DNA from: Syntrophus sp. PtaU1.Bin005
Lineage (GTDB): Bacteria > Desulfobacterota > Syntrophia > Syntrophales > Syntrophaceae
Reading direction: 5' to 3'
Length of the DNA: 64,000 nt
NCBI GenBank assembly: GCA_002067745.1
Contig: MVRU01000001.1
Span: 1-64,000, forward strand
A program made the translations under genes and the position numbers. Below, in pieces: positions 5,400-18,971 of this stretch. Every line of letters begins with the position of its first letter. Positions within the stretch are counted from its first letter, which is position 1. Below the pieces are notes generated by a model. That model was not told where the DNA came from. It did no database searches and saw nothing but the letters and a program-made list of their open reading frames with translations.

Positions 5400-6053
5400 A
5401 TGAAATTTTTTATCGATACGGCGAACATCCGTGAAATTGAGGAAGGCCTGAGCCTGGGAATGGTGGATGGCGTAACCACCAATCCATCCCTGATCGCCAG
5501 GGAGAAAAAGCCTTTCAAAAACGTCGTCGCAGAAATTCTGGAGAGGGTCAGTGGACCGGTCAGCCTCGAAGTTGTGGGGCTGAAAGCGGAGGAGATGGTT
5601 GAAGAGGGGAAAAAGCTGGCCAAGCTGGGTGAGCAGGTGGTGATCAAAGTTCCTATGACCACGGAGGGGTTGAAGGCAACCAAGATCCTGTCGTCAGAGG
5701 GGATCTCCGTAAACCAGACCCTCGTCTTCTCGCCGGTTCAGGCCTTGATGGCGGCCAAGGCCGGCGCCTCCTATGTCAGCCCCTTTGTGGGCAGGCTCGA
5801 TGATGCAGCCCATAACGGCATGGATATTGTAGAACAGATTCTAGCCATCTATGATTGCTACGGGTTTGATACGGAAGTCATTGTGGCCAGCATCCGCCAT
5901 CCCCGCCATGTTCTTGAAGGGGCGCTTATGGGAGCCGATATTGCGACCATACCCTTCAAGGTCATCGAACAGCTTGCAAAGCATCCCTTGACGGACAAGG
6001 GCATCGAATTGTTTCTCGCGGATTGGAAAAAGGTTGTTAAACTTGAAAAATAG
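5400..6053 (+). CDS. Transaldolase-like / fructose-6-phosphate aldolase family
   Basis: 217-residue member of the short transaldolase family (TalC/FSA type), about two thirds the length of classical transaldolases. [13 protein letters not shown] at the start and [10 protein letters not shown] are typical; the Schiff-base lysine lies in VVIKVPMT (K83). The C-terminal segment [21 protein letters not shown] matches the family. It acts either as transaldolase, moving a dihydroxyacetone unit between sugar phosphates in the non-oxidative pentose phosphate pathway, or as fructose-6-phosphate aldolase. The sequence alone does not decide this; transaldolase activity is the more common finding for bacterial members of this length. 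It sits in an operon with amino-acid and lipid genes. Confidence 0.92.
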
Positions 6054-8909: not shown

Positions 8910-9971
8910 ATGCCCCAGCTTTTAAAGGTTGAACATCTGTCTGCAGTCTTTGAAACCTCCCAGGGGGTCATTCGAGCGGTCGATGGGGCGGACCTGGAGC
9001 TTCAAAAAGGGGAAACGCTCGGCATCGTAGGAGAATCGGGATGCGGCAAGAGCGCCCTGGCTCTGTCGATCATGCGTCTTCTTCCTTCCCCTCCCGGAAG
9101 AATCGTTTCCGGTTCCGTGTTTTTTGCAGGGCGCGACCTTCTGCTTCTTGGCAGCGAGGAAATGCGCCGGGTCCGTGGGCGGGACATCAGCATGATTTTC
9201 CAGGAGCCGATGACGTCGCTGAACCCCGTCCTCCGGGTTGGCGATCAGATTGCCGAAGTTACGCGCCTTCACCGTCAGGAGAGCAAAAGGGAGTCACGGG
9301 ATCACGCCGTGGAAATGCTGCACCTGGTGGGCATTCCCGATCCGGAAAAGCGCGTTCGGGACTATCCTCACCAATTGAGCGGGGGAATGCGGCAGAGGAT
9401 CATGATTGCCATGGCCATGGCCTGCAATCCCCGGCTGCTGATCGCCGATGAGCCGACAACGGCCCTGGATGTGACGATTCAGGCCCAGATTCTTGATCTT
9501 ATCGAACGCCTGAAATCGGAAAACGAAATGTCCGTTATTCTGATTACCCATAACCTGGGCATTGTCGCCGACACGGCACAGCAGGCTGTTGTCATGTATG
9601 CGGGATGGGTGGTTGAAAAGGCGCCGGTCAGGGAGCTGTTTTCTTCTCCCCTGCATCCCTACACGAAAGGGCTGATGCGCTCCCTGCCCAGGCCGGAAAG
9701 GGATTACGATCGATCCGCCTTACTCCCCGTCATTCCCGGGGGGGTCCCCGATCTCTACCTCCTTCCGCCGGGATGCCGCTTCCAGGATCGGTGCGGGCGG
9801 GTCATGAAGCTCTGCCGGCAGAGGGAACCGAGCCTGCTGGAGGTGAGCCACGGCCATGCCGTCCGCTGCTGGCTGTATCATCCGGAAACCCAGGCGGACC
9901 AGCCGGCGGGAGCTCCGGGAAGGGCTGAGAGAGGATACGAAGCAGGACTGAACGGCCATCATCATGGATAA
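8910..9971 (+). CDS. Oligo/dipeptide ABC transporter ATPase, DppD type
   Basis: ATP-binding subunit of a peptide or nickel-type ABC importer. 353 residues from ATG 8910, which has GGAG 7 bases upstream; an in-frame GTG at 8880 is less likely. Walker [12 protein letters not shown]-loop [14 protein letters not shown], signature [15 protein letters not shown], Walker [13 protein letters not shown] and H-loop ILITHNLG are all intact. The C-terminal oligopeptide/dipeptide domain has [19 protein letters not shown], whose four cysteines can hold an iron-sulfur cluster in relatives. The last 8 bases overlap the next ATPase gene. No substrate-binding protein or permease lies nearby, so the partners must be encoded elsewhere. 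Confidence 0.93.
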
Positions 9972-11896: not shown

Positions 11897-13981
11897 ATGA
11901 ATATGACTGAAAGCGTTCGGGAGAGAAGTATCTGTAATAATAACGCCTTATGTGACAGTCGTTTGCAGGTGGAAGAAATGGGACCATCCTGGCTATTCAG
12001 ACATAACAACCTGATCCGGGACGTCATGTCCGGAGAATACATCAAAAAGCAGAAACTGACCAATATTATCAACCACATTCACTTCAAAGGGGATCCCCTT
12101 TATGCGCTCCTGAAGCATCCCCAGTACAATGAAGAAATTCTGGTCAAGGTTCATCCCGAGCCCTGCCTCGGTGACGAAGTGGTATGCCGCTGGGATTCGG
12201 AATACGAAGGATACCGGCTGGAGAGATATCATTTTGAATATCTGGTCATCAACCATGATCAGTCCATCATCCTTGCCAGACCGAGGAAACTTACCACCAA
12301 TGATGGCGGATTAACGATGCAGCTCCCCGACTCCAGCCCCATCACGAGCAAACGGCAGGTTCCGCGCTTTCAATGCCATCAGATCAAGGTCGAATTGATG
12401 CAAAACGGCTTTCAGGCCACGGGAGAACTGGTTGATTTCAGTGCCCATGCCTTTCGCCTCCGCCTCAAGACGGGACTGTCGGCCCTGTTTTACTGGTTCA
12501 AGAGCGATGTGCCGGCCAGCATCAGACTGTTCAACGAACACGGCGTCTTCTACTCGGCAACCTGCCGCCATATCTACCAGCAGCAAAGCGTTGCCGGTGT
12601 TGAAATTGTCGTCAGTCCCATCCAGGTTGAAGATGAACAGCATGAAGAGAGGGTGATCCGGAATCACCGCACGCAGAAATTACCATCGATTTCGGCCATC
12701 TTCGAGCATCCCTTCATGGGCAAAACCTTCCAGCGCAAAATTATCGATATTTCCACCTCGGGCTTCGCCATCAGCGACAAGTCCGATGCGGCCGTTCTGA
12801 TCCCGGGATTGATCATCCCGAAAATGACGATCAGTTACGCCGGGCTTTTGAAGATTCACTGCAAGGCGCAGGTCATTTACCGCAAGGACGAATCATCGGT
12901 CCGTTTCGGGGTAGCGATACTGGACATGGGGATTGAGGACTACAATAAATTGAATCAGCTGTTGAACAATTTCCCCACAGACGATGAAGACATGATCAAC
13001 GAGGTGGATACGGAACAGCTCTGGGATCTGCTGTTTGACAGCAATTTTATCTATCCGGCAAAATACCAGCATATCCAGGCGTTCCGAGAGAATTTTCAGG
13101 ATACTTACAGAAAGCTCTACAGTGACTGTCCTGCCATCGCCAAGCATTTCACCTATCAGAAGGATGGGCGGATCTACAGCCATATCTCTCTGCTTAGGGC
13201 CTATGAAAAAGCCTGGATGGTGCACCACCATGCCGCAAGGACGATGGACGGCAGCCCGACGGGCCTGATCGTTCTGAAGCAGATGATCTCCTACCTTTAC
13301 GATCTGAGGCGCTACCCGTCGGCCATGCTCGACTATTTCATCTGTTATTTCCGCCCTGGAAATAAGTTTACCGATAGGATATACACGGGTTTTGCAAAAG
13401 GAAAATTCAATCCGCGGGTCTGTTCCCTCGATCTTTTCTCCTACATCACTCATTCGGTCGGCGATGTGACGTTGCAGATGCCCGAGGGCTGGTCCGTGCG
13501 GGAATGCTGCAAGTCCGATCTGTGGGAACTTGAGCAGTTTTACATGCACCATTCCGGCGGAATGCTCTGCGATGTGCTGGACATGAAGAATCACAAGCAG
13601 CATTCCCTCGAAAACATCTATGCGCAGCAGGGTTTGCACCGCAAATGGCAGGCCATGGCATTGCATCATGCCGGTGAGCTCAAGGCTGTGATCATCAAGG
13701 AGGAGTCCGATGTGGCCATTAATCTGTCGGACCTTCTCAACGGCTTCAAAGTGTTTGTCATCGACCCTGAGACTCCGATGGATGCAATCCTCGCAGCCGT
13801 TGAGAACATTACCAGGGTGAAATCGGCGGAATCATATCCCTTGCTTATTTATCCGGCGGATTATACAAAGGACAAAGACGTGAATGCTGAGAAAGATTAC
13901 ATCATGTGGATCCTCAATGCACAGTATGCCAATGAATTTATCGAATATATCATGAAAAGATTCCGGATGATCATCACCTAG
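11897..13981 (+). CDS. Tandem PilZ protein with C-terminal acyltransferase-like part
   Basis: 694 residues from ATG 11897 (GGAG 5 bases upstream); ATG 11903 is also possible. Two PilZ-like regions are seen. The first has RQVPR (153-157) and then VDFSAHAF, where the last glycine of the usual D/NxSxxG is alanine. The second has RNHRTQK and a canonical DISTSG (284-289). PilZ domains bind cyclic di-GMP. The last 300 residues, including HHHAARTMDGSPTGL and the GNAT-like ELKAVIIKEESDVAINL, look like an acyltransferase fold but I cannot name the family. No membrane segment or signal peptide. It ends 6 bases before a hybrid kinase gene, so the two form one signalling unit. Confidence 0.75.
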   Translation: MNMTESVRERSICNNNALCDSRLQVEEMGPSWLFRHNNLIRDVMSGEYIKKQKLTNIINHIHFKGDPLYALLKHPQYNEEILVKVHPEPCLGDEVVCRWDSEYEGYRLERYHFEYLVINHDQSIILARPRKLTTNDGGLTMQLPDSSPITSKRQVPRFQCHQIKVELMQNGFQATGELVDFSAHAFRLRLKTGLSALFYWFKSDVPASIRLFNEHGVFYSATCRHIYQQQSVAGVEIVVSPIQVEDEQHEERVIRNHRTQKLPSISAIFEHPFMGKTFQRKIIDISTSGFAISDKSDAAVLIPGLIIPKMTISYAGLLKIHCKAQVIYRKDESSVRFGVAILDMGIEDYNKLNQLLNNFPTDDEDMINEVDTEQLWDLLFDSNFIYPAKYQHIQAFRENFQDTYRKLYSDCPAIAKHFTYQKDGRIYSHISLLRAYEKAWMVHHHAARTMDGSPTGLIVLKQMISYLYDLRRYPSAMLDYFICYFRPGNKFTDRIYTGFAKGKFNPRVCSLDLFSYITHSVGDVTLQMPEGWSVRECCKSDLWELEQFYMHHSGGMLCDVLDMKNHKQHSLENIYAQQGLHRKWQAMALHHAGELKAVIIKEESDVAINLSDLLNGFKVFVIDPETPMDAILAAVENITRVKSAESYPLLIYPADYTKDKDVNAEKDYIMWILNAQYANEFIEYIMKRFRMIIT

Positions 13982-13987
13982 AAACCG

Positions 13988-16858
13988 ATGGACGCAAACC
14001 TGTACAACAGTCGAGTCATTATTACCTTTCTCGAATATCTTCGGGAAAGGCGTCCCGATATTGACATCGAAGGCATTCTCAAGGATTCCGGGATCTCCTC
14101 TTACGAACTGGAGGATGAGGGGCACTGGCTGACGCAGAGGCAGGTGGATGGATTCCACGACGCCCTCATGGAAAGGACGCAGGACGCGACGATCTTTCGC
14201 GAAGCCGGGCGCTTCATGTCGGCCTCCAAGTCCGCCAAGGCGATCCGTCAGTTCATTCTGGCCTTTCTCTCACCCATCCAGGCCTATTTCATGCTCGGCA
14301 AAATCGCCTCCTATCTCAACCGCGGCACCACTTTTCATATCCGGAAGATCCGGCGGAACACCGTAGAAATCATCACGACGATCAATGAAGGCGTTCATGA
14401 ACGGCCTTACCAGTGTGAAAACCGCATGGGCAGCCTTGAAGCTGTCGCTGAGATATTTACGGGCAAACTGCCGATTCTTGAACATACGGAATGCCTGCAT
14501 CGAGGAAGCGGGCAGTGCCGTTACGTCGTAACCTGGCAGGAACCCAGGTACATGAAATGGTGGCGCTGGCGGAATTATCTCATGATCCTTTCCATCCTCG
14601 CCATTGCAGGGTGCTCGTTCCTTTTCCCCTCCCTGAAACTGGCCGCCTTCATCGCCCTGCCGGCGGTAACCGTGATTGTAGGCATCGCCTTCTATTCCCA
14701 GTATCTTGAGAAAAAAGACATCTATGAGAGGACGGAAAGGCAGGGTGATGCGGCAAACCGCCTGCTCGATCAGATCACCATCAGTTACAACAATGCGCTT
14801 CTGGTTCAGGAAATCGGCCAGGCCGTCTCAAACATCATGGATGTCGACAGCCTGTTGAAGTTTGTCATGGAGACGCTGCAGAAGAGGCTTAAGTTCGACC
14901 GCGGCATGATCATGCTTACCAGTCCGGACAGGACGAGGCTTATCTATGCAAGCGGATACGGTTACAGCTCAGAAATTGAAGCCGTGCTTCAGAAGACTCA
15001 GTTCCATCTGGACAAGCCGGATTCCAGGGGCCCATTCGTTGTTGCGTTCAGAGAGCAGCACCCCATCTTCGTAAATGATATCAAAGACATTAAAAATGAT
15101 ATCTCAGTGAGAAGCCGGGATTTTGTTGAAGCCTTGGCCGTCAACTCCTTCATTTGCGTTCCCATCATCTATGAGGGAAAATCGGAAGGCGTCCTGGCTG
15201 TTGACAATTACCGTTCCCACAGGCCTCACAATCAAAGCGAAGTGAACCTTCTCATGGGCATCGCGCCGCAGATAGGGATCAGCATCAACAACGCCAAATC
15301 TCTCCGCAAGATCAAGGAAAGTGAAGAGCGGTTTCGAAACCTCAGCGAAAACTCTCCGGACATCATCTACACTACAGACAACGGCGGATTCATTACCTAT
15401 ATTAACCCGGTGGCGGAAGAAATCCTGGGGTACGCGACGCAGGAAATGATGGGGCGCTTTTTTTCGGAATTTGCCATGGCCGACGGTGGGAAGACCTTCA
15501 ACCAGTTTTTTGACCGCGTGTGGCAGGGAAAAGAAACGATCAAGAACATGGAGGCCAAACTTCTGGCCAAAAATGGAAAAGAGCGGCTGTTTTACATGAG
15601 CGGCGCCCCAAACTTGAACGCCATGGGAGAGATGATGGGCGTCGTGGGGATTTTGAAGGATATTACCGAGCAGAGAAAGCTGGAACAGCAGCTTCACCAT
15701 GCTTCGAGAATGAACGCCATCGGTCGCTTGACAGGGGGCATCGCCCATGACTTCAACAATATCCTGCAGGCGATTAATGCATACAACGAACGGTTGACCA
15801 TGCGCAAAAGCGATGGCGATCCGGAGCTGAAGTATCTGATCAACATCAAGGAATTGATCAAGAGGGCAACGGACCTCGTCGGGCAGCTTCTCATTTTCAG
15901 CAGGAAGGCCGACAGCAAACTGGAGCCGATCGACATCAATGCGGAAATTCGAAAATTTTACGAGCTTCTCATAAACACGCTGCCGAAAAAGATTGATGTG
16001 GAGCTGGATCTGGACGAGCCTCTTCACACCATAAACGGGGATTCCGCTCAATTGGGCCAGGTGATCATGAATCTCACGGTCAATGCAAAAGATGCCATGC
16101 CTGACGGTGGAAGGATACGGATCAAAACAAAAAACATCGAATTTCCCACGGCGACCTATCGAAGCAGCGTCAAGATTGACCCCGGCCGATATGCCCTGTT
16201 CTCGATTTCCGATACGGGATGCGGAATTTCCAAGGAGAACCTCGATCACATCTTCGAGCCGTTTTTTACGACCAAGGAGGCGGGAAAGGGGGCGGGAATC
16301 GGGCTGTCCGTTGTTTACGGCATCGTTAAAAACCACAACGGGTTCATATTCTGCACGAGCGAACTTGGATTGGGGACAACTTACGAGATTTATTTTCCTG
16401 AGACCACCGCCACCGCCAGTGTGGAGGTGTTTGAGGAAAGGCGGGAACCCGTTAAAGCAACGGCGCTGTCCGAGGGTCAGGAAACGATCCTTCTGGTGGA
16501 CGACGAGCCGGCACTTCTTGATATCGGAAAAGAACTGCTTTCCCTGCTGGGTTATTCCGTTTTGACCGCCAATTCCGGAGAAAGCGCCTTGAGTGTGATT
16601 CATGAGCAGAAAGGGGGCATCGCCCTTGTCATCCTGGATCTCATGATGCCCGGTATGGGTGGCGAGAAATGCCTCTCTGAAATACTGAAAATCGACCCCG
16701 CTATGAAGGTGCTAATCGCCAGCGGCTTTGCGGCAAGCACGAGCCAGCAGGATCTCCTCCGTGCGGGCGCGGTGGATTTTATTCAAAAACCCTATCAAAT
16801 CGATTTCCTGAGCAGGAGAATCCGCTCCATTCTGGATCAGCCGGCGGCATCCTCATGA
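13988..16858 (+). CDS. Hybrid sensor histidine kinase (sensor-TM-GAF-PAS-HK-REC)
   Basis: 956 residues. Order: N-terminal sensor of about 180 residues ending in CLHRGSGQCRYVV, which recalls the V4R/HNOB-associated fold; two membrane helices (about 193-236); GAF (265-430); PAS (441-565); HisKA with the phosphoryl histidine in GGIAHDFNN (H587); HATPase with NLTVNAKDAMPDGG, DTGCGIS and GKGAGIGLS; and a C-terminal receiver whose phosphoacceptor lies in LVILDLMMPGMGG (D884), with FIQKPY near the end. The phosphorelay therefore needs a histidine phosphotransfer protein encoded elsewhere. It lies 6 bases after the PilZ gene, and its end overlaps the convergent methyltransferase gene by 22 bases. Ligand unknown. 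Confidence 0.9.
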   Translation: MDANLYNSRVIITFLEYLRERRPDIDIEGILKDSGISSYELEDEGHWLTQRQVDGFHDALMERTQDATIFREAGRFMSASKSAKAIRQFILAFLSPIQAYFMLGKIASYLNRGTTFHIRKIRRNTVEIITTINEGVHERPYQCENRMGSLEAVAEIFTGKLPILEHTECLHRGSGQCRYVVTWQEPRYMKWWRWRNYLMILSILAIAGCSFLFPSLKLAAFIALPAVTVIVGIAFYSQYLEKKDIYERTERQGDAANRLLDQITISYNNALLVQEIGQAVSNIMDVDSLLKFVMETLQKRLKFDRGMIMLTSPDRTRLIYASGYGYSSEIEAVLQKTQFHLDKPDSRGPFVVAFREQHPIFVNDIKDIKNDISVRSRDFVEALAVNSFICVPIIYEGKSEGVLAVDNYRSHRPHNQSEVNLLMGIAPQIGISINNAKSLRKIKESEERFRNLSENSPDIIYTTDNGGFITYINPVAEEILGYATQEMMGRFFSEFAMADGGKTFNQFFDRVWQGKETIKNMEAKLLAKNGKERLFYMSGAPNLNAMGEMMGVVGILKDITEQRKLEQQLHHASRMNAIGRLTGGIAHDFNNILQAINAYNERLTMRKSDGDPELKYLINIKELIKRATDLVGQLLIFSRKADSKLEPIDINAEIRKFYELLINTLPKKIDVELDLDEPLHTINGDSAQLGQVIMNLTVNAKDAMPDGGRIRIKTKNIEFPTATYRSSVKIDPGRYALFSISDTGCGISKENLDHIFEPFFTTKEAGKGAGIGLSVVYGIVKNHNGFIFCTSELGLGTTYEIYFPETTATASVEVFEERREPVKATALSEGQETILLVDDEPALLDIGKELLSLLGYSVLTANSGESALSVIHEQKGGIALVILDLMMPGMGGEKCLSEILKIDPAMKVLIASGFAASTSQQDLLRAGAVDFIQKPYQIDFLSRRIRSILDQPAASS

Positions 16859-17768: not shown

Positions 17769-18971
17769 TTAAAACAAGTAACGAAGGCTCATGGCCAGCA
17801 GATGAATGTCCGAATCATATTCGCCATTGGCAAAGGCTCCGTAGTGGTTGGTCGATTTGGTCCTGTCTTCCTGAAGCTGGTAGGCATAAGCCATCGATAA
17901 ACCCACCTTGCCGAACCTGGCCTCGCCGCCCAGGCAGAACAGATGAACGTCGGAATCCGGGATGGACGGGTCGAAGGTCGTGTCGGGAACGGGATTTTGA
18001 CCGTACAAATAGCCTGCATGGATGGCATACCTGCTGTTGATCCGGTATTTTCCCCCTGCATTGAAGGCGAAGGTGCTGCGCCAATTTCTCGGCGAGACGG
18101 CAAGGGTCTGTCCTGCGCCTTCGATCTTCAATTGGTCGAAGGATGACCAGTCCTCCCAGCGCAGACCCACTTCCAGGATCAGCCTGTCCGTGGGCTTATA
18201 GGCAATGCCGACGGCTACCTGCTGGGGAAGGGTAAGCGTGGTTTCGCCACTGATATCCTCCGGCAGAATGCTCATCGAAAGAGTGCCGTCAACATCGATC
18301 GTCACCTTGCTGCGATACGATACGCCTATGGAAAGGGTGTCTGTAGCATGCAGCAGGAGGCCCAGGTTGTATCCAAGTCCGTTTCCCGACCCTTCAAATT
18401 TCTGGTCGACATCAAAAGCGATATTCCTGCTTTGAAGGGTGGAATCCAGCAGGACGAAATCCAAACCGGCTGCGATCGAAAGTTTGGGTGTGATCCGCCA
18501 GGATACAACGGGATTGATGTTAAACGTGGTAAGCTCGGATTTTGTGGCTACATACCGGCCTTCCCAGCTTTCAGGCCATGTCGTGGCCAGGCCGAAAGGG
18601 TTGAAAACGCCGACGCCGGCGCTGAACGTCTCATTGAACCGGTGCGAGAGATAGAAGGTGCTCGGATAGAATACATCGTCCTGGGTCTCGGATTTTTTCC
18701 CGGTTGCGGCGCTTGTGAACTCCCGATCGGCAAAAATCAGGGTCGTTCCGACCTCGACCTGTGTTCCCGGAAGATCGTTCAGGAGTGCCGGATTGTAGAA
18801 AATCGCTTCGGGAGAGTCGGAGTGGGCGATAACGGCGGCCCCCTGTCCAAGAGCGGACGCCCCCTGGGTAAAGATGCCGAAGCCTGAGCCGAACGATAAG
18901 GAAGGGAGGGACGTCAGCGCAGCAATCGCAAAATAGAGTATGACACGGAAGCTTAGTTTCGTATGTTTCAT
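17769..18971 (-). CDS. FadL/OmpP1/TodX-type outer membrane porin
   Basis: 400-residue outer-membrane beta-barrel that lets hydrophobic compounds such as long-chain fatty acids or aromatics across. N-terminal signal peptide (residues 1 to about 29, ending LSFGSGFG). The mature N-terminus has the family plug features SGFGIFTQGASALGQG and the NPA box EAIFYNPALLNDLPG. Alternating strands follow and the protein ends in a typical outer-membrane terminal strand, LLAMSLRYLF. Full length. In a fatty-acid or aromatic degrading anaerobe it would serve substrate uptake; that is inference. A methyltransferase gene follows on the same strand. Confidence 0.92.
   Translation of the reverse strand: MKHTKLSFRVILYFAIAALTSLPSLSFGSGFGIFTQGASALGQGAAVIAHSDSPEAIFYNPALLNDLPGTQVEVGTTLIFADREFTSAATGKKSETQDDVFYPSTFYLSHRFNETFSAGVGVFNPFGLATTWPESWEGRYVATKSELTTFNINPVVSWRITPKLSIAAGLDFVLLDSTLQSRNIAFDVDQKFEGSGNGLGYNLGLLLHATDTLSIGVSYRSKVTIDVDGTLSMSILPEDISGETTLTLPQQVAVGIAYKPTDRLILEVGLRWEDWSSFDQLKIEGAGQTLAVSPRNWRSTFAFNAGGKYRINSRYAIHAGYLYGQNPVPDTTFDPSIPDSDVHLFCLGGEARFGKVGLSMAYAYQLQEDRTKSTNHYGAFANGEYDSDIHLLAMSLRYLF

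Follow-up and report, generated by a model that had tools for sequence, protein, structure and literature searches.

A PilZ-GNAT protein, a methyltransferase and a sensor domain with exchangeable outputs form a conserved locus in Syntrophus: a candidate c-di-GMP-gated pathway

Why should the gene for a protein that appears to combine cyclic di-GMP (c-di-GMP) reception with acyl transfer be followed, 6 bases downstream, by the gene for a hybrid histidine kinase? The question is raised by a locus in Syntrophus sp. PtaU1.Bin005, within positions 1 to 64,000 of contig MVRU01000001.1 (assembly GCA_002067745.1), the 64,000-nucleotide stretch referred to here as the window. The first gene, with an ATG at 11897 preceded by GGAG and a stop codon that ends at 13981, encodes two PilZ domains and a C-terminal tandem GNAT domain (CT) in one protein, P. 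A preliminary description had recognized this gene and, behind it, a hybrid kinase with GAF and PAS domains and a distinct N-terminal sensor domain (S), all of which is borne out by Pfam, the kinase motifs and a structural model of S; it had overlooked a third member of the module, the gene for a methyltransferase (MT). To our knowledge, few enzymes are switched directly by c-di-GMP. We propose, with an even chance of being right, that the locus encodes a c-di-GMP-gated N-acyltransferase, MT and a dedicated sensor of exchangeable output that senses a product or substrate of their pathway. S, and not the kinase, is the constant partner of P.

Conservation of the locus is one line of evidence for this proposal. 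Since a search of genome contigs with the single P sequence gave no match, an alignment was used as query; it gave 128 loci, and the best 80 of the 128 were kept, some of them from one genome or nearly identical. They lie in Syntrophus, Smithella, other Syntrophaceae and desulfobacterial metagenome bins, with two loci of Syntrophus sp. PtaB.Bin001 being 71% identical to P. At least 600 bases follow P in 69 of the 80 loci; an S match lies on the same strand within about 1.5 kb after P in 55 of these 69, and the sensor gene starts no more than 100 bases after the end of P in 41 of the 69. Among the 14 loci without an adjacent S, five have a match in another part of the locus (L046, L048, L051, L109 and, partially, L121) and another five offer under 1.5 kb of sequence. 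When the window is included (81 loci, the flanks of which often end at contig ends), clustering finds the sensor-gene family in 64, with other kinases possibly mixed in, an S match of at least 120 residues is present in 61, and MT is present in 32, antiparallel in 30 of the 32. Three further neighbors were rejected as core members because they occur in a minority of the 81 loci: an acyl-CoA dehydrogenase, named from sequence reading (17), an enolase-hydrolase fusion (16) and a B12 radical SAM protein (11). Two of the 55 adjacent S matches, of 54 (L105) and 70 (L112) residues, are stubs that a full sensor gene follows at some distance. At both loci (L105, ~5450-5615; L112, ~9046-9260) the stub of the sensor start overlaps the end of P and is followed by the enolase-hydrolase fusion, the B12 radical SAM gene and the full sensor gene, an order suggestive of an insertion in which the start of the sensor gene was duplicated. 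A contig in a bin labelled Thermoprotei archaeon (L064) bears P at 43% identity, probably by a binning error.

Co-occurrence was assessed in 60 genomes, namely the window genome and 59 relatives of its order. P is present in 30 of them (two or three times as fragments), S in 33, comprising all 30 genomes with P and 3 of the 30 without, and MT (E up to 1e-30) in 23, all of them among the 30 with P and none among the 30 without. By a reading of the match lists, MT and P share a contig, at a distance of about 8 kb or less, for 20 of the 23 MT genes. Fisher tests that ignore kinship yield 9e-14 (S) and 2e-10 (MT). Since S is nearly confined to genomes with P in the sampled order, it appears to be dedicated to the P pathway. 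No match to P, MT or S was obtained in one genome of the genus, a single contig of 3.2 Mb. Across the phylum, CT is present in 44 of 395 sampled genomes. Of 20 stretches taken from such genomes, three are distant relatives (L155, L156 and L157), and the other 17, by our own count, contain S in 15 cases, MT in 12 (plus one weak partial match) and HD-GYP after S in 10. The pairing of P with a sensor gene is thus kept well beyond chance, in answer to a check that the preliminary description had proposed.

What follows S, on the other hand, is exchanged. The 61 loci hold 62 sensor genes, which end in a histidine kinase (27), an HD-GYP domain (25), a class III cyclase (3) or another output (1, a masked, chimeric-looking frame in L051), while 6 are cut by contig ends. 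Of the 27 kinases, 26 were assigned by script and L106 by eye; three run off the contig, as does one HD-GYP protein. Two of the three cyclases were scanned and match Guanylate_cyc at E 2e-19 and 3e-20. The HDxGK and HHExxDGSGYP motifs are intact in 24 of the 25 HD-GYP proteins, the one at 7098 in L109 being the sole protein without a HHExxDGSGYP match. Similarly, all 27 kinases match the H box. Only this part of the kinase pattern was used, because the full patterns are too narrow (strict, 9 of 27; looser, 12 of 27, the failures lying in the N or G part and some frames being cut by contig ends). The window kinase has its H, N and G boxes and receiver aspartate intact (HDFNN 587, NLTVNA 695, DTGCGI 742, GAGIGL 768, LDLMMP 883). 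Kinase control, which the preliminary description had envisaged, is therefore not supported as a general rule, as the partner gene encodes HD-GYP about as often as a kinase.

The exchange has been repeated. On a tree built from 56 rows (including a few near-copies) that cover just the sensor, the membrane part and GAF, the output labels need 10 changes, when the least possible is 3 and shuffled labels average 21.4; for the HD-GYP label taken singly there are 8 changes, at least 7 of which are forced by well supported branches. The window kinase falls into a supported group of four with two kinases (L047, L082) and one HD-GYP protein (L070). In blocks of 60 residues, its identity to L070 is 52-83% as far as residue 480 and 18-36% from there on, the drop falling inside PAS, whereas identity to L082 is 37-83% throughout. 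Thus, part of PAS and the output have been exchanged, with sensor and GAF being kept. The locus, at which kinase and c-di-GMP phosphodiesterase have repeatedly replaced one another after the same sensor, amounts to a natural experiment on output swapping. L095 has two sensor genes (9052 and 13636), one for a kinase and one for HD-GYP, which are sisters on the tree with weak support; it is possible that this is a duplication that preceded output exchange.

How P itself could be controlled is suggested by its N-terminal half. Pfam detects PilZ in two stretches (E 7.8e-9 for the whole protein), and both barrels are present in an AlphaFold model of P (78-row alignment, mean predicted local distance difference test [pLDDT] 80), in agreement with the preliminary description. 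However, its wording that one is degenerate and the other canonical was imprecise, as each is canonical in one half: PilZ1 is without the motif G and PilZ2 without RxxxR. Over the 78 rows, PilZ1 conserves R153 (78), R157 (77), D180 (74) and S182 (64), position 185, where the motif G would be, being A in 40, G in 26, S in 11 and T in 1. PilZ2 conserves R255 (75), R258 (71), D284 (64, with N in 11), S286 (70) and G289 (78), and its arginines are spaced RxxR rather than RxxxR. The best structural match of PilZ2 (252-362) is 4xrn_C (VIA Z 14.9, 105 residues, 2.6 Å), and MrkH matches at Z 14.3. Ahead of PilZ1, residues ~46-145 form a YcgR-N-like region in which Pfam has no match. YcgR-type structures align with the model over residues 47-360 (5y6f) and 42-361 (3kyf) at a root-mean-square deviation of 13-14 Å, and therefore the domains are placed differently in the P model; the YcgR-type 2rde_A aligns over 46-280 at 6.5 Å. 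P may bind c-di-GMP through these two domains, in which residues of the ligand site are conserved. The messenger is probably made in the host, since the window genome has 7 GGDEF matches; it also has 7 PilZ matches, P included.

The C-terminal end, which the preliminary description had called acyltransferase-like, is a tandem GNAT fold in the model. CT (364-680) matches the histidine acetyltransferase 9emd (Z 13.5, 256 residues, 4.2 Å) and, at Z of about 10-11, VipF, glucosamine N-acetyltransferase and N-myristoyltransferase. A FemX-type chain is not among the 50 matches listed in either structure comparison, which excludes nothing. The ~330 residues of CT match nothing above the curated cut-off in Pfam (P, 27 relatives and three distant ones) or in NCBIfam (P and two distant relatives), in which only PilZ matches passed. 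Weak library rows for P, such as PilB3_C and DUF934, fell below the curated cut-off and were set aside, and a PDB sequence search with a 28-row profile of P gave no significant match, one row reaching E 1.6. At no position of CT does the RxxGxG/A acetyl-CoA motif occur in more than 3 of 78 rows, and because nearly all members lack it, both the donor and catalysis by CT can be no more than putative. One could imagine that CT is a catalytically dead GNAT fold for binding or scaffolding, with P being a non-enzymatic c-di-GMP receptor and MT the sole enzyme, as would befit a domain that has no standard acetyl-CoA motif and matches no curated acyltransferase model. We deem this quite improbable, since eight CT residues (F384, Y386, K389, W440, H444, R582, S611 and Y668) are invariant in 35 of 35 rows, representing 32 CT domains and the three distant relatives, and several of them (K389, H444, R582, S611, Y386, Y668) are of catalytic type. 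Moreover, other tandem GNATs likewise lack the acetyl-CoA motif in one half. On the fold of the model, acyl transfer is the putative activity of P. Of the transferase active site expected in the preliminary description, the GNAT fold and the invariant residues stand, but the site itself is at most a candidate.

The distant relatives indicate how the module may have been put together. L155 is PilZ-free: its 331 aa comprise CT and nothing else, the invariant residues are all kept, and an MT gene starts 3 bases after it. Since CT and MT occur together here without PilZ, the catalytic core seems to consist of GNAT and MT, PilZ being a regulatory addition. In L156 and L157, CT lies behind PilZ matches, in a cluster with radical SAM proteins and MT; L157 carries, in addition, a diverged sensor kinase of the S type (S match E 4e-4). 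PhpK-like radical SAM genes separate the PilZ-GNAT gene from MT, two of them in L156 (10208-15607) and one in L157 (2842-5392). PhpK is the best NCBIfam match, at 235 and 266 bits, below the cut-off of 600 and with one of the two L156 proteins having been scanned. It is possible that they are further tailoring enzymes of the P pathway.

A fusion of PilZ with GNAT is of a known kind, so that the novelty which the preliminary description saw in the arrangement does not extend to the fusion itself: in Myxococcus xanthus, PixB (MXAN_2604) combines two PilZ domains with GNAT; HfsK is another tandem GNAT that binds c-di-GMP. According to the available portion of the PixB study, PixB binds c-di-GMP with incomplete motifs, its acetyltransferase domain is needed for motility and all of its domains for development, its substrate is unknown and its gene may be in an operon with two downstream genes (PMC8316039). 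P and PixB share the order PilZ-PilZ-GNAT, by description rather than by comparison of sequence, but the arginine motifs are 210 residues apart in PixB (R121, R331) and 102 in P (R153 to R255), and that portion mentions no sensor or MT partner for PixB (PMC8316039). HfsK of Caulobacter crescentus, FemX-like according to its authors, differs in that no PilZ is named in the accessible part of the report, where c-di-GMP is proposed to bind at the GNAT surface and C-terminus (PMC5362036), whereas P has PilZ domains. In the literature listings searched, which take in little of the subscription literature, we found no description in print of the sensor and MT partners, the output exchange or the S-CT congruence, and no named combination of these module parts beyond PixB and HfsK.

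PixB opens another reading, in which P is an effector of the PixB style with a protein as its acetylation target, perhaps part of a motility or envelope system, and S is just one of many c-di-GMP inputs that happens to be co-regulated, with no self-made ligand. The shared domain order, c-di-GMP binding and the role of PixB in motility and development speak for this scenario, and the exchange towards HD-GYP would fit a general c-di-GMP regulon. We nonetheless regard it as doubtful, because S is almost confined, and MT confined, to genomes with P among the 60 genomes, because GNAT and MT come together without PilZ in one relative (L155) and because S tracks CT rather than GAF, if less clearly so with respect to PilZ.

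This tracking is seen in the pairwise distances among 48 loci in which P and the sensor gene are adjacent (50 minus two near-copies). S distances correlate with those of CT at 0.69, of PilZ at 0.59 and of GAF at 0.43. The partial correlation of S and CT given GAF and PilZ is 0.46 (0 of 500 shuffles as high), that of GAF and CT given S and PilZ 0.02 (206 of 500), and that of S and PilZ given GAF and CT 0.12 (23 of 500). Split-half noise is alike for GAF (0.68) and S (0.67), and correction for noise gives 0.91 for S-CT, 0.85 for CT-PilZ, 0.78 for S-PilZ, 0.69 for GAF-PilZ, 0.64 for S-GAF and 0.58 for GAF-CT. On taxon resampling, the correlation of S with CT exceeds that with GAF by 0.16 to 0.34 and that with PilZ by just 0.01 to 0.18. 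The congruence of S and CT fits a synthase-receptor pair and is to be taken as support, not proof. LuxI-type and other synthase-receptor pairs have a GNAT-type synthase adjoining a dedicated ligand sensor; the P locus resembles them by description and adds PilZ control of the putative synthase. It is possible, however, that the S-CT correlation and the gene order reflect one inherited DNA block with recombination inside the sensor gene, and no fit between synthase and receptor. The 41 of 69 loci with a sensor gene within 100 bases of the end of P, as well as the exchange of PAS and output, which is real, are what such a block would produce. Yet adjacency alone predicts that PilZ-GAF should be the weakest correlation, when it exceeds both S-GAF and CT-GAF after noise correction. 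We consider the inherited block a serious possibility, though not the expected one. Another partial correlation, 0.31 between GAF and PilZ when S and CT are controlled for (reached in 0 of 500 shuffles), is one for which we have no explanation at hand; perhaps GAF and PilZ both read the same messenger.

What could S sense? A model of kinase residues 1-195 (60 sequences, pLDDT 89) has as its best fold match, over nearly the whole length, the H-NOX chain 3tfd_B (Z 16.1, 171 residues, 2.9 Å). VirS follows at Z 14.6, and the V4R domains of DmpR, MopR and PoxR, as well as Bet3, at Z of about 10, including the chains 6iy8_C (Z 10.2, 127 residues, 2.6 Å) and 5kbi_A (Z 10.0); for the sensor domains of DmpR, MopR and PoxR, Z spans 9.7-10.2. 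Pfam detects V4R in 51 of 60 S members (E up to 1, best 2e-7), with the window S at E 0.003, under the curated cut-off, and Arabinose_bd in 49 of 60, mostly with weak scores. S shares its fold with H-NOX, but the proximal heme histidine was not found in S. Indeed, no conserved histidine occurs at positions 100-116, where we take the H-NOX heme ligand to be expected; heme is therefore not expected in S, and the idea of a heme-based gas sensor was rejected. C143 and C169 are conserved in 60 of 60 rows and C177 in 59 of 60, while H166 and H171 are invariant. In DmpR, zinc is bound by C151, C177, C185 and, as fourth ligand, Glu172 (PMC7264223), and a second source also gives three cysteines and one glutamate (PMC10715001). 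S has the same cysteine spacing of 26 and 8 as DmpR; the fourth ligand of DmpR is Glu, and in S an invariant His166 is placed three residues before C169. This pattern of residues suggests that S may contain a zinc site. S also differs from DmpR, MopR and PoxR in its outputs, which are kinase, HD-GYP or cyclase rather than a sigma-54 AAA+ domain. If arranged as a hairpin, the two predicted membrane spans behind S would put sensor and kinase both on the cytoplasmic side.

The genomes with S and no P differ among themselves: L181 has just a 187-residue frame, L180 a kinase and L179 an S-HD-GYP gene. In L179 (1447-11984) this gene adjoins, as judged by eye, ketoacyl synthase-, ketoreductase-, dehydratase- and ligase-like genes, in a cluster that reads like type II fatty-acid or polyene synthesis and includes an outer-membrane lipoprotein carrier-like gene. 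The proximity of S-HD-GYP to ketoacyl-synthase-type genes here hints at an acyl compound as the ligand of S.

In the mechanism that we prefer, P would be an N-acyltransferase-like tandem-GNAT enzyme gated by c-di-GMP through its two PilZ barrels, and MT would be a second enzyme of the same pathway. Membrane-anchored S would have a pocket of the H-NOX/V4R type, stiffened by a structural metal site, for a small molecule that is probably acyl or hydrophobic in another way, and binding would be relayed via GAF and PAS to an exchangeable output, that is, a putative phosphorelay in the window version and c-di-GMP hydrolysis or a cyclase in relatives. Most likely, S would read a product or substrate of the pathway and adjust signalling, and in the HD-GYP versions its output could directly lower the c-di-GMP that gates P. 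Catalytic core and ligand sensor are constant, and PilZ gating and output domain vary. More tentatively, and with rather less than an even chance, the locus might be a self-contained circuit in which P and MT make an acylated, methylated molecule with S as its dedicated intracellular receptor, S-HD-GYP setting the gating c-di-GMP and a phosphorelay or cyclase taking its place elsewhere, with the match of synthase and receptor kept as the output was repeatedly exchanged.

Several observations weigh against the preferred mechanism. Neither PilZ domain of P in the window has the full RxxxR and [D/N]xSxxG motifs in one domain, and CT is nearly devoid of the acetyl-CoA motif. The window version ends in a hybrid kinase without a known partner. 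Four loci (L068, L077, L083, L086) have more than 4 kb after P and no sensor gene there, 7 of the 30 genomes with P have no MT match at the cut-off, and three genomes have S but no P. Output exchange is repeated but not free, because the labels are clustered on the tree (10 changes versus 21.4). CT and S adjoin in the DNA, so that recombination could also couple their histories, and the shuffles, like the Fisher tests, ignore phylogeny. The conserved gene set still suggests a new type of metabolic feedback circuit, and as the P family supplies a PilZ-free relative, a recurrent MT partner and a possible product sensor, its chemistry becomes testable.

The features of the locus are collected in the table.

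Table. Features of the P locus in the window (aa, amino acids; ORF, open reading frame)
Feature	Position	Strand	Evidence
P: PilZ-PilZ-tandem GNAT protein, 694 aa	11897..13981	+	ORF, Pfam, AlphaFold model, structure comparison
YcgR-N-like region preceding PilZ1, P residues ~46-145	12032..12331	+	model alignment to 5y6f, 3kyf, 2rde_A
PilZ1, P residues ~146-243; RxxxR 153-157, D180, S182, A185 replacing G	12332..12625	+	model, alignment
PilZ2, P residues 252-362; R255xxR258, DISTSG 284-289	12650..12982	+	Pfam PF07238 264-356, structure comparison
CT: tandem GNAT domain, P residues 364-694	12986..13978	+	model, structure comparison
Hybrid histidine kinase, 956 aa	13988..16858	+	ORF, Pfam, motif check
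Sensor domain S, kinase residues 1-187; H-NOX/V4R-type fold; C143, H166, C169, H171, C177	13988..14548	+	model, alignment
Two predicted membrane spans, kinase residues ~193-240	14564..14707	+	hydropathy
GAF, kinase residues 285-433	14840..15286	+	Pfam
PAS, kinase residues 447-563	15326..15676	+	Pfam
HisKA (H587) and HATPase, kinase residues 579-806	15722..16405	+	Pfam, motif check
Receiver domain, kinase residues 834-945	16487..16822	+	Pfam, motif check
MT: class I S-adenosylmethionine (SAM) methyltransferase, 289 aa	16837..17706	-	ORF, Pfam, relatives

The MT gene is convergent with the kinase gene and overlaps it by 22 bases. Adjoining MT on the minus strand, and not among the 30 commonest neighbor families listed for P loci, is a gene for a FadL/TodX-type outer-membrane transporter (window 17769-18971; Pfam E 2e-65).

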